DNA from: a virus
Strand: one strand, 5' to 3'
Virus record (IMG/VR): IMGVR_UViG_3300023170_000193
Location: 1 to 22,669 of that record
Length of the DNA stretch: 22,669 bases
In this document: positions 10,708-16,560 of the stretch, piece after piece
Layout of the letters: every line of letters starts with the position of its first letter
Position numbering within the stretch: position 1 is the stretch's first letter
Made by a program: the position numbers and the translations under genes
Notes under the pieces: model-generated
Databases searched by the model: none
Told to the model about the DNA's origin: nothing
The model's input: the letters and a program-made list of their open reading frames with translations, nothing else

Positions 10708-12618
10708 GTGGCAAAGCTTTTCAATAGAGCAAAAATGACGACTGCCAGTACGGGGACTGGCACCGTTGTTTTAGGTAGTGCAGCTACAGGTTTCCAAACC
10801 TTTGCTGCTGCAGGGGTAAGTAATGGTGACGTTGTTCAATACGTCATCGAAGAAGGTGCTAATTTTGAAATCGGCACTGGTACTTATACGTCTGCCTCTA
10901 CGTCTCTAACGCGCTCTCCAACGGAAAGCAGTAGTGGTGGTAGTGCGATTAACCTCGCAGGGGATGCCACCGTTTCGATTGTGTCCGTAGCTGTAGACTT
11001 CACTAGAATACAGAATGCGGGAACCACCAAGGTGGAAGCCACGGCTACAGGTGCAACTGTCACAGGTAATCTTGCGGTTACTGGTACGGTAGACGGTAGG
11101 GATGTCGCGGGAGATGGTACAAAGCTAGATGGTATAGAGAGTAGTGCAGATGTTACCGACAGCACAAATGTAGGCTCTTCTCTTACTGACTTTCCCACAG
11201 ATACAGACGCAGCAAGTACCGACCTTATTCCTGTTTATGATACGACTGCGGCTCGTTGGGAAAAGCAAACCATTGCCAATGCTGCTTTAGTTGGTCCGAC
11301 AGGACCTACAGGACCCACAGGTCCCACTGGCCCTACAGGCCCTACAGGTCCACAGGGTCAGAAGGGCGAAAAGGGACAGAAGGGCGAAAAGGGTCAAAAA
11401 GGTGAGATCGGTGCAACGGGTCCTACAGGGCCAACTGGTCCTACGGGTCCTACAGGCCCTACTGGCCCACAGGGTCAAAAAGGTGAGAAAGGCGAGAAGG
11501 GTCAAAAGGGAGACACGGGCGCTACTGGTGCAACGGGTCCCACAGGCCAAAAAGGTGAGAAGGGTCAAAAAGGGGATACAGGTGCTACGGGACCTACTGG
11601 TCCTACTGGACCACAAGGCCAAAAAGGTGAGAAGGGACAAAAGGGGGACACTGGTCCTACGGGACCTACGGGTCCGACTGGACCACAAGGTCAGAAAGGT
11701 GAGAAGGGCCAAAAAGGCGATACTGGATCTACAGGTCCCACAGGTCCGACTGGCGCAGATGGACCCACAGGTCCTACTGGGCAAAAAGGTGAGAAGGGTC
11801 AAAAAGGTGAGGTGGGTGCAGATGGACCCACGGGGCAAAAAGGTGAGAAAGGACAAAAAGGTGAGGTAGGTGCAACAGGCCCAACTGGCCCCACGGGGCA
11901 AAAAGGTGAGAAGGGTCAAAAAGGTGAGAAGGGTCAAAAAGGTGAGGTAGGATCAACTGGGCCGACAGGGCCAACTGGATCGACGGGGCCAACAGGTCCA
12001 ACAGGGCCGCTTACTTCTGGCATCATCGTTATGTGGTCTGGTGCAATTTCTGCCATTCCAAGCGGCTGGGTTCTTTGTAATGGTGCAAACGGAACGCCTG
12101 ACTTGCGAGCGCGATTTGTTATAGGTGCGCAAGCTGACAGCGGTCAGACATATGACGTCGGAGATACGGGCGGTACAACCAACGTAACTCTTGCAACGAG
12201 CAACCTGCCTTCTCACACTCATGGTTCGGGTAATTTTGCGGTAGCATCGCACTCTCACGGAGCGGGTAACTTTGCAGTAGCATCACATACGCACAGTTCT
12301 GGTAACATTGTTACTTCGAATACTGGTTCGCATAGTCATAACCTTGCTCAAGCAGCATATCAAAATGGTTATGCGGGAAACAGTGGTCGAAATAGGTTAA
12401 ACTATAACCCCGGCGGCAATGTGGTAAACAATATAAGCTCTGCTGGCGCTCACTCACATAACACATCAGGAAACACGGGGTCTGCTTCTCCGGGTCTAAG
12501 CGGAAACACGGGTAATGCTTCTCCGGGTCTAAGTGGAGACACAGGGGCCACAGGGTCGGGAACTGCGGTTAGTATTCTTAATCCATACTATGCGCTTGCG
12601 TATATTATGAAAACTTAG
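10708..12618 (+). CDS. Collagen-like tail fibre with tail-collar tip
   Basis: 636 residues; GTG start, AAGG about 10 bases upstream. Residues 1-195 are a beta-rich attachment region ([13 protein letters not shown] start, with [13 protein letters not shown]-type spacing typical of phage fibres). Residues 196-435 are an uninterrupted collagen stalk of 80 Gly-X-Y triplets. Residues 436 to about 510 are a tail-collar domain ([42 protein letters not shown]), followed by a His-rich, Gly/Ser-rich distal part with several H-x-H motifs and the terminus [11 protein letters not shown]. It should form a trimer. It is very likely a receptor-binding or side fibre. All 29 stalk lysines are at Y, and hydroxylation/glycosylation genes follow. 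Confidence 0.88.
11293..12012 (+). repeat. 80 collagen Gly-X-Y triplets (9-base repeats)
   Basis: In-frame 9-base units encode GPT (28), GQK (18), GEK (11), GAT (5), GDT (4), GPQ (4), GST (3), GEV (3), GAD (2), GEI and GPL. GPT blocks alternate with charged GQK/GEK blocks. Every Lys is at Y and every Pro at X. Lys-Gly-Glu and Lys-Gly-Asp sequences are known to stabilise collagen helices by interchain salt bridges. Synonymous variation shows that the repeat is old rather than freshly expanded. Confidence 0.95.
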
Positions 12619-12627
12619 GTGGGGAAA

Positions 12628-14271: not shown

Positions 14272-16019
14272 TTTATCAGATATCTCTTCATGGGGATGCT
14301 TTTGATGCTAGGCAACTATCTTGGGAAAGTGCAATTGAACTTTCTGGCTGCAAGCCAGATCTTGCGTGGAAAGACCCAATACACAACAGATCTTTACTTA
14401 TTGGAGAATTTGGGTGTGCTGTAAGTCATCTGCGCGTATGGAGAAAAATTGCAGAGTCAGGTATTAACGGCATTATTTTAGAAGAAGATGCGGTCTTTAC
14501 CTCTATAGATCCCGTAGATGTTTCTGACAAATTAAGGGTATATCATAGCGTTTGGCTGGGGTATCGGTGGAATGATCTAGGTTACTGGTACAATGCTCAT
14601 GCGTATGCAATTACTCCAGATACGGCAAGGTATTTGTGCGAGGGGTTTTCGGATTCTATAATACCCGTAGACGAATGGTTGCCATATAAGTTAAAAGGAA
14701 AACAGAATTACTTTTATGTTCCCGAAAAGGTTCGTCAGATCCCAAGGGAAGATAGACCAAGCACAATAGAGGTGGGACCAATGAACGTGCATGTATTAAC
14801 TGTCGGTACAGATGAAACAAAAATGTGGGCGCTTGAGCAATCAGCAAAACGCTTTGGTGTAAGTTATCTTAACCTTGGAAACGGAGTTACTTGGGGCGGC
14901 GGCACGATGGAAGGCGAAGGAGGGGGACACAAAATCAATCTTGTTCGTGGTCATTTAACAAGCCTTCCAGACGAGGATATTGTTTTGTTCTGTGATGGCT
15001 ACGATGTAATGTTTGTTGATGACTTGCAAACTATTAAAGACCGTTTCTTTGGTTTTGATTGTGATATTCTTTTTGCAGCGGAAAGAAATTGTTGGCCTCA
15101 ACCTATATTAGCCGCTCAATTTCCTATGACTTCAAGCCCTTACAAATATCTGAATAGCGGTTTGTATATAGGTAAAGTTGGTATGCTTAAACAATTCTTA
15201 AACGAAGCTATTGCTGACGAACATGATGATCAATTATGGATTCAGAAACGGTTCCTCTCTGTTGACGACATTAACGTAAAGCTTGATTATGAGGGTTACA
15301 TTTTTCAGTGTGATGATGATGTTTCCTTTAATGGGATACAGGTATCAAACGGGATGTGCTGCCCTTGCATATATCATGGAAATGGTGGACCTGAAGCTAA
15401 ACAAAGATTCCTGAATTTGGCAAATAAAATTGGTTTTCAAAGCTCTGCATCTCAAGATCATCAGGTGCAATCCCCACCAATAAACTCTTTAGACTATGAG
15501 GAAGTAGCGCAAGATATTCTTGTGGTTCCATTTTGGAGTAAAGATAGGTGTCAAGAAATCATTCAAACCTCTGAGGCTGTTGGTGGATGGGGCAATATGG
15601 AAGGCGATAAGTTTCCCGCTCAAGAAATACGAGTAAGAAAACTTGGGTTATGGGACGAACTTGAGTGGGTTTGGAAGGAACAATTAGGGAAAGTAGCAGA
15701 AAAAAAATGGACTCCTATGGAACACATGGGGTTACGAGATGCGTTCACAATGCGTTATTCAATGGACACTCAGACGAGTTTAGGGTTTCATACAGATGCT
15801 TCATTGGTGACTGGCAGCGTAAAACTAAACGATGATTATGAAGGCGCGGAGCTTATTTTCCCGCATCAAAACTTCTCCAATAAAGATGTTCCCGTTGGGC
15901 ATTGCATCCTGTTTCCAAGTCAAGTGACGCATGGTCACAAGGTAGAGCCTTTGAAGTCTGGGGTAAAATACTCTCTTACAATGTGGACAAGTCGTTATCG
16001 CGGTGACGTAAATGAGTAA
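14262..16019 (+). CDS. Fused GT25 glycosyltransferase + PLOD-type glycosyltransferase/lysyl hydroxylase
   Basis: 585 residues; TTG start with GAGGG 6 bases upstream, inside the previous gene. Domain 1 (1 to about 172) is GT25, with GEFGCAVSH at 48-56 and LEEDAVF at 73-79; human COLGALT enzymes belong to this family. Domain 2 (174 to about 391) matches the LH3/PLOD glycosyltransferase: W211, GGGHK, FCDGYDVMF with D245/D248 (LH3 D112/D115), DDQL, and HGNG with H372 (LH3 H253). Domain 3 (about 420-585) is the PLOD Fe(II)/2-oxoglutarate domain: H510-x-D512 (FHTDAS), H559 (THGHK), and K569 where LH3 has R729. It likely forms hydroxylysine and adds one or two sugars to it. LH3 numbers are from memory; activity is inferred. 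Confidence 0.85.
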   Translation: MAIVYQISLHGDAFDARQLSWESAIELSGCKPDLAWKDPIHNRSLLIGEFGCAVSHLRVWRKIAESGINGIILEEDAVFTSIDPVDVSDKLRVYHSVWLGYRWNDLGYWYNAHAYAITPDTARYLCEGFSDSIIPVDEWLPYKLKGKQNYFYVPEKVRQIPREDRPSTIEVGPMNVHVLTVGTDETKMWALEQSAKRFGVSYLNLGNGVTWGGGTMEGEGGGHKINLVRGHLTSLPDEDIVLFCDGYDVMFVDDLQTIKDRFFGFDCDILFAAERNCWPQPILAAQFPMTSSPYKYLNSGLYIGKVGMLKQFLNEAIADEHDDQLWIQKRFLSVDDINVKLDYEGYIFQCDDDVSFNGIQVSNGMCCPCIYHGNGGPEAKQRFLNLANKIGFQSSASQDHQVQSPPINSLDYEEVAQDILVVPFWSKDRCQEIIQTSEAVGGWGNMEGDKFPAQEIRVRKLGLWDELEWVWKEQLGKVAEKKWTPMEHMGLRDAFTMRYSMDTQTSLGFHTDASLVTGSVKLNDDYEGAELIFPHQNFSNKDVPVGHCILFPSQVTHGHKVEPLKSGVKYSLTMWTSRYRGDVNE

Positions 16020-16560
16020 GTTTTTTGTTGAAATCGGTGCGGCAAACTTTAATACCTTGCTGCCTTTGGCAAAAGCGGGATGGCGAGGAATAGTAGTGGA
16101 ACCTGTTCCACACCTGTTTGATCAGTGTGTAGAAATGTTTTTGCCCTATGATGTTAGGGTCGTTCAAGCGGCTATTTCTGACTATGATGGGCATATAGAA
16201 TTTGCCGTTGCTAGAGACAACGGGACGTGGCTTACTGGGTGTTCCCATGTTGTTGCGGGTAATCATCTTGGTGAGAAGTTAAGTGATCATCCATTGAACA
16301 AGGATAATTTTAATGAAAGGATTACGGTAGATTGTCTCACTTTAGACAAATTGCTTAGTGGTGTAGACTCTGTGGACTTGATGAAGGTCGATGCAGAGGG
16401 ACATGAAAACAATATTTTCAACGCCTATTCGTTTCGGATAAAGCCTTCTTTCTTGAAAGTTGAACATAAGCACATAGATGACATTCATTTAAAACAAACT
16501 TTAGAACAAAATGGGTATTTGGTTTGGACAGAAAAAGATGATATATATGCAGTAACATAA
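16012..16560 (+). CDS. FkbM-family SAM-dependent methyltransferase
   Basis: 182 residues overlapping the previous stop by 8 bases, with GGTGA before the ATG. SAM-fold motifs: FFVEIGAANFNTLLPL (motif I), GIVVEPVP with the acidic ribose-binding Glu, VRVVQAAISDYDG, VDLMKVDAEGHENNIF and FLKVEHKH. The VDxEGHE signature is diagnostic of the FkbM/Methyltransf_21 group, many of which O-methylate sugars. It is shorter than many members but has the whole core. Placed directly after the fused glycosyltransferase, it may cap the fibre glycan with a methyl group. That target is inferred. Confidence 0.85.
   Translation: MSKFFVEIGAANFNTLLPLAKAGWRGIVVEPVPHLFDQCVEMFLPYDVRVVQAAISDYDGHIEFAVARDNGTWLTGCSHVVAGNHLGEKLSDHPLNKDNFNERITVDCLTLDKLLSGVDSVDLMKVDAEGHENNIFNAYSFRIKPSFLKVEHKHIDDIHLKQTLEQNGYLVWTEKDDIYAVT

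Follow-up and report, generated by a model that had tools for sequence, protein, structure and literature searches.

A candidate collagen-modification module behind the collagen-like tail fibre gene of marine tailed phages

The virus record IMGVR_UViG_3300023170_000193 of IMG/VR (22,669 bases, hereafter the window, meaning the whole stretch that was analysed) carries, directly behind a gene for a collagen-like tail fibre, genes resembling those of collagen-modifying enzymes, which raises the question of whether a phage modifies its own fibre in the manner of animal collagen. A first-pass annotation had read six adjacent genes as a dedicated fibre-modification set, and the layout that it described was confirmed, with six open reading frames (ORFs), all open and all on the plus strand, with neighbours that are spaced by, or overlap by, 20 bases at most. 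The module core consists of two enzymes, a three-domain fusion and a stand-alone 2-oxoglutarate (2OG)/Fe(II) oxygenase, and the genes very probably represent a phage-borne collagen-modification module. This reading draws on the domain architecture, the conservation of catalytic residues, the linkage of fibre and enzymes, their gain and loss together and the co-variation of particular fibre residues with the enzymes; catalytic activity is predicted.

Regarding the putative substrate, the fibre gene (10708–12618) encodes 636 amino acids (aa) with a match to Pfam Collagen (4e-36) and a PHROG assignment as tail fibre. The protein has an N-terminal part resembling a virion anchor, which also occurs in relatives with non-collagen shafts, followed by a Gly-X-Y shaft and a Collar-like tip. 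The shaft (11293–12012; aa 196–435), which is the proposed substrate, comprises 80 uninterrupted Gly-X-Y triplets with runs of Gly-Pro-Thr, and all 29 of its lysines sit in the Y position with glycine next, so that the virus has a collagen-like protein of its own with 29 X-Lys-Gly sites, as expected beside an L230-like viral collagen-modifying enzyme. Across the module fibres, GQKGQK and GQKGEV are typical lysine motifs, in which glutamine and not an acidic residue precedes lysine. Proline is present in the X position only, with none in Y, and in the linked fibres Y-position proline was found in 27 of 5383 triplets. An artefact of glycine-only or simple-repeat sequence was ruled out, the composition of X and Y being varied.

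The fusion gene (14262–16019; 585 aa) overlaps the oxygenase gene by 10 bases and encodes three domains. The N-terminal GT25 domain (aa 1–163, 14262–14750; Pfam Glyco_transf_25, 6.6e-10) is COLGALT1-like, with similarity of aa 14–79 to human COLGALT1 (phmmer, 1.9e-8) that includes the GE-GC-SH and PVDE-LP regions, and is the weakest of the three domain matches; the central domain (aa 171–387, 14772–15422; Pfam GT_PLOD, 1.4e-43) is a putative LH3-like glucosyltransferase, aa 163–384 matching the glycosyltransferase domain of LH3 in sequence; and the C-terminal domain (aa 398–577, 15453–15992; Pfam 2OG-FeII_Oxy_3, 2.2e-5) resembles the lysyl hydroxylase (LH) of mimivirus L230 over aa 408–574 (phmmer, 1.3e-7). 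An AlphaFold2 model of the fusion (mean predicted local distance difference test score, pLDDT, 81; predicted template modelling score 0.44) is good for the domains but not for their relative placement. Comparison by VIA-align gave Z 15.7 for aa 1–162 against COLGALT1 (9evk; root-mean-square deviation, rmsd, 2.6 over 160 residues), Z 28.8 for aa 171–387 against the glycosyltransferase of LH3 (6wfv; rmsd 2.1), and Z 21.3 for aa 398–577 against the L230 LH (rmsd 2.0), its closest fold, with prolyl hydroxylases clearly lower at 16.2 or less. By sequence and by model, the C-terminal 2OG domain is thus specifically lysyl-hydroxylase-like, a point that goes beyond the first-pass annotation.

The metal ligands and catalytic residues are conserved, the roles of the LH3 residues used for comparison being taken from PMC6082870. 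Invariant in 25 homologues are E74 and D76 in the acidic metal motif of the GT25 domain, where the PVDEWLP region is also conserved; W211, D245, D248, W278, D323 and H372 of the GT_PLOD domain, which align with W75, D112, D115, W145, D191 and H253 of LH3 and include the DxxD motif, the gating tryptophan and the metal-binding histidine; and the HxD...H iron ligands H510, D512 and H559 of the LH domain, which align with H667, D669 and H719 of LH3. No central accessory domain of the LH3 type was found between the end of the glycosyltransferase (~387) and the start of the LH domain (~398), which indicates homologous domains in a new arrangement and not an orthologue of LH1–3. PHROG 61, "2OG-Fe(II) oxygenase", covers aa 15–582 of the fusion (E 7.4e-82).

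The stand-alone oxygenase (13726–14271; 181 aa; Pfam 2OG-FeII_Oxy_3, 6.5e-15) starts 20 bases behind the preceding gene and was found in 84 of 92 module loci, mostly immediately before the fusion. Its H99-x-D101, H158 and R168, corresponding to HxD...H plus arginine, are invariant in 20 homologues, and the solved proteins that come nearest to it in sequence are PKHD-type hydroxylases. A classic prolyl 4-hydroxylase (P4H) acting on X-Pro-Gly was rejected as its identity, the shaft in the window having no Y-position proline; the target is most likely the X-position proline of Gly-Pro-Thr.

The first-pass annotation had proposed a search for collagen-like fibre genes alongside PLOD-type genes in viral contigs, and the outcome bears out the association. 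A profile search of IMG/VR with the fusion gave 436 relatives, of which 80 were kept, most records being fragments. A same-strand collagen gene lies upstream in all 55 loci whose upstream sequence is 3 kb or longer, at a distance of 383–3141 bases, and in 63 of the 65 loci where it is 2.5 kb or longer. The fibre–enzyme neighbourhood is far from chance, and the module spans phages with very different structural genes, namely the group of the window, Roseobacter phage CRP-6 with its relatives, and cyanophages of the Kyanoviridae (S-CAM9, S-PRM1 and S-8S55, among others); a contig from a Neomarinimicrobiota metagenome-assembled genome that has the module is phage-like by gene content.

Close relatives were sampled independently via an unrelated neighbouring gene (9190–9822 of the window). 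Among 35 informative loci, 31 have both the collagen and the fusion, four have neither and none is mixed (Fisher 1.9e-5, many of the loci being closely related). The four module-less relatives have related flanking genes and a similar N-terminal part of the fibre, but the shaft is different and no module enzymes are present. GT_PLOD was found in none of 20 records of capsid-protein relatives, one of which had a collagen match. The first-pass annotation had named as telling against it PLOD-like genes that are equally common in related phages lacking a collagen-like protein; no PLOD gene without collagen was seen in either sample.

The composition of the fibres varies with the enzymes residue by residue. 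For comparison, 80 viral loci were drawn by a pattern fixing glycines alone, of which one had GT_PLOD in its record, and lysine positions were counted after removal of near-duplicates. Lysine is placed 736 times in Y and never in X in 29 module fibres, whereas the 69 control fibres have it 300 times in Y and 74 times in X. When the count is restricted to fibres with three or more lysines, X-position lysine is used by none of 28 module fibres but by 21 of 30 controls. A larger set of 47 module fibres has 1629 lysines in Y and one in X. Among loci drawn by the stand-alone oxygenase, Y-position lysine makes up 14.9–31.8% of triplets where the fusion is present (17 distinct fibres) and 0–2.2% where it is absent (20 fibres), without overlap, the latter still being Gly-Pro-Thr collagens; when the 30 fusion-less oxygenase records were searched over their whole length, GT_PLOD was again absent. 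Across 84 oxygenase types, the fusion and a lysine-rich fibre are both present in 63, both absent in 19 and discordant in two, one of which (L397) does have a PLOD domain according to tblastn. Conversely, across 70 distinct fusions, the oxygenase accompanies X-position proline in at least 10% of triplets in 57, both are lacking in 12 (X-position proline below 10%), and one (L039) is discordant. The P values of such two-by-two tables count related sequences, and tests on independent pairs are safer: for the oxygenase and X-position proline, all seven phylogenetically independent pairs point the same way (p 0.016 by sign test), and for the fusion and lysine, the four supported independent contrasts are also in agreement, a number too small to reach significance. 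Thus, lysine follows the fusion and X-position proline follows the stand-alone oxygenase, a double dissociation that would follow from each enzyme modifying its own residue in the adjacent fibre and that host targets explain poorly.

Taken together, this strongly suggests that the fibres of phages with the module are constructed with collagen modified as in animals. During fibre synthesis in the host cytoplasm, the LH domain of the fusion would hydroxylate the X-Lys-Gly lysines of the shaft, the GT25 domain would then add galactose and the PLOD glycosyltransferase domain glucose, giving Glc-Gal-hydroxylysine as in animal collagen; we infer the identity and order of the sugars from domain homology, and the timing of the modification and its biological benefit are likewise inferred. 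The stand-alone oxygenase would act on the Gly-Pro-Thr part of the shaft, most likely by hydroxylating the X-position proline. Hydroxyproline in X is able to stabilise Gly-Hyp-Thr helices, and it could thereby stabilise the triple helix without hydroxyproline in Y. The decorated fibre trimer would then be mounted on the virion. The fullest version of this proposal, in which marine tailed phages combine a complete animal-type pathway of hydroxylysine glycosylation in one polypeptide with an X-prolyl hydroxylase for Gly-Pro-Thr, yielding fibres with Glc-Gal-hydroxylysine and X-hydroxyproline in a self-contained system that lies outside eukaryotes and their giant viruses and is spread through the sea, could equally well prove right or wrong.

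Several observations weigh against modification of the fibre by these enzymes. One PLOD-bearing short fragment (Marine virus AG-345-L05) has no fibre in the 1.9 kb upstream. When lysine-rich fibres were drawn by a DNA motif (encoding GQKGQKGE), GT_PLOD was present in 36 of 73 records; many of the PLOD-less records end at the fibre, and several records of 34–81 kb with lysine-rich fibres have no PLOD domain. Gly-Pro-Thr fibres also occur without the stand-alone oxygenase. In the fusion, K569, a lysine conserved in a nine-row alignment, replaces the 2OG-binding Arg729 of LH3. Lysine serves at this position in other 2OG enzymes, so that K569 is compatible with activity.

Y-position lysine might reflect the physics of the triple helix and the linkage a hitch-hiking cassette whose enzymes have no specific target, given that lysine and arginine are favoured in Y by phage and bacterial collagens anyway (PMC3368898) and that X-position lysine is also rare in lysine-rich fibres without a PLOD domain. 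Physics alone does not account for the X-position lysines of the control fibres, set against none in the linked ones, and hitch-hiking leaves unexplained the near-zero Y-position lysine of fibres that have the oxygenase but not the fusion, which makes this explanation very unlikely. The enzymes might alternatively modify host molecules, either proteins or polysaccharides of the cell surface, and lie near the fibre through clustering of host-range genes; phage glycosyltransferases often change the host surface, and many are found in the host-recognition islands of pelagiphages (PMC7029224). Since such targets predict neither the separate tracking of Y-position lysine and X-position proline by two enzymes nor the joint loss of shaft and enzymes in close relatives, they are very improbable.

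Two further alternatives keep the fibre as the substrate and concern what is done to it. The fusion may hydroxylate lysine but add a single sugar, or sugars other than galactose and glucose, one glycosyltransferase being inactive or using another donor. Mimivirus L230 attaches glucose straight to hydroxylysine (PMC4691112), the GT25 match is comparatively weak, and GT_PLOD proteins of ~300 aa, too short for an LH domain and sometimes two per locus, stand alone in Hyphomicrobiales genomes (L451–L463), which indicates that this domain can occur independently of collagen. With the catalytic residues of both glycosyltransferase domains invariant and the two types matching enzymes that act sequentially on animal collagen, a product with one sugar, or with other sugars, is the less likely outcome. 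The stand-alone oxygenase, for its part, may have the threonine in Y as its target, or a residue that lies elsewhere than in the shaft. X-position proline and Y-position threonine come paired in Gly-Pro-Thr, so that co-variation separates them incompletely, and the PKHD-type relatives point the same way; Y-position threonine is nevertheless frequent in oxygenase-less loci (48 of 99 triplets in L015), where X-position proline is near zero, and such a target is less likely than X-position proline.

Regarding the remaining genes of the proposed set, the claim of a dedicated fibre-modification set is supported for the fusion and the stand-alone oxygenase, by co-occurrence, co-loss and position-specific co-variation, and is not supported for DUF6065 and FkbM as parts of it. 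The small ORF (12619–12972; 117 aa), which follows the fibre gene with a gap of 0 bases, has no Pfam match and was dropped as an enzyme; it occupies the slot that in relatives usually holds a Phage_tail_APC chaperone of tail-fibre assembly. The DUF6065 gene (12983–13705; 240 aa; 10 bases further on) matches PF19541 (2.2e-6) at 27.8 bits, just above the Pfam gathering cut-off of 26.6, and is optional, occurring in 15 of 92 loci. Its AlphaFold2 model (pLDDT 69.5) has dUTPases as all of its best Foldseek matches (E 8.7e-5 downwards, TM-score by target ~0.65), and its conserved stretch GVVxTDxY...INFPF...GTPLVQVIPF resembles dUTPase motifs 3 and 4. The predicted fold is thus dUTPase-like, and a role as a decorating enzyme found no support. 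The gene for an FkbM-type methyltransferase (16012–16560; 182 aa; Pfam Methyltransf_21, 5.6e-16) overlaps the fusion gene by 8 bases; it is likewise optional, occurring in 18 of 92 loci, in 17 of which it is the next gene behind the fusion.

Other loci gave observations of their own. The 5.6-Mb genome of Kaistia terrae (chromosome, L449:4422–14572) has a strong DUF6065 gene after its sole Pfam-detected collagen gene, whose lysines are apparently all in Y, and a single GT_PLOD-LH gene 7.4 kb from the collagen gene; some link of DUF6065 to collagen loci is therefore possible. Sulfotransferase genes lie within the module in two relatives (L010:8177–8899 and L090:5281–5868), which suggests further decoration. 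The AG-345-L05 fragment encodes a fusion and, behind it, another GT25/PLOD-like protein (393 aa) that apparently has no LH domain (L020:1835–4944), and a 21.6-kb record without GT_PLOD encodes a collagen-like protein of 2,235 aa with 161 lysines in Y and none in X (L153:2655–9359).

By its head and tail genes, which include a portal and a major head protein assigned with PHROGs, the window as a whole comes from a tailed phage; its capsid relatives are Pelagibacter, Roseobacter and cyanobacterial phages, and megablast of the window against isolated phages gave no matches. Downstream of the module, a repeat protein with DSGSFxxTGQ-like units (16576–17697) has a relative just behind the enzymes in 47 of 92 module loci, and a second, non-collagen fibre (17762–19990) shares its C-terminal tip (MWSGAI-IPxGWVLCxG ...) with the collagen fibre.

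Bacteria and viruses have been considered to lack prolyl hydroxylases for collagen, the stability of which would come from sequence alone (PMC3368898), and prokaryotic collagens have mostly been described as unhydroxylated (PMC8968730). If the proposal is right, collagen fibres that are both hydroxylated and glycosylated are made in the bacterial cytoplasm by many phage lineages, a new class of modified receptor-contacting fibres; the fusions would provide a compact one-chain enzyme for the production of modified collagen in bacteria and would serve as natural models, in a single chain, of the LH3/COLGALT1 complex; and a function and a target would be assigned to a large family of phage genes whose present label is simply 2OG oxygenase. 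A search for phage lysyl hydroxylases or for modification of phage collagens turned up no earlier description of the module in the literature covered, which includes few subscription journals and preprints, so that this is weak evidence of novelty.

Among known systems, PHROG 61 labels the family only as oxygenase and auxiliary metabolic gene, without noting its collagen and glycosyltransferase character. Human LH3 (PLOD3) resembles the fusion in the DxxD/His metal site of its GT_PLOD domain and in the HxD...H of an LH domain at the C-terminus, whereas the fusion has no central accessory domain but an N-terminal GT25 domain instead, and Lys569 in place of Arg729. The likeness to human COLGALT1 lies in the GT25 catalytic domain and is limited to the C-terminal GT25 part of that protein. 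The LH3/ColGalT1 complex (PDB 8zgc) joins the same set of activities in separate proteins, which here are predicted to reside in one polypeptide. The P4H of Chlorella virus (vCPH) and bacterial P4Hs share the 2OG/Fe(II) family and facial triad with the stand-alone oxygenase but act mainly on X-Pro-Gly, that is on Y-position proline, which the shaft in the window lacks, and the oxygenase is not classed with them. That a virus can modify its own collagen has a clear precedent in mimivirus L230, in which a glycosyltransferase is joined to a C-terminal lysyl hydroxylase as in the fusion, and which has been found to modify the collagen of its own virus (PMC4691112), an activity that for the fusion is predicted. 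L230 belongs to a giant virus that infects amoebae; that study describes neither a COLGALT-like GT25 domain nor a linked X-proline oxygenase with it, and it places glucose directly onto hydroxylysine, which differs from the route proposed for the fusion. Compared with L230, the new elements are the occurrence in phages, a third domain that is COLGALT-like and the pairing with a proline-linked oxygenase.

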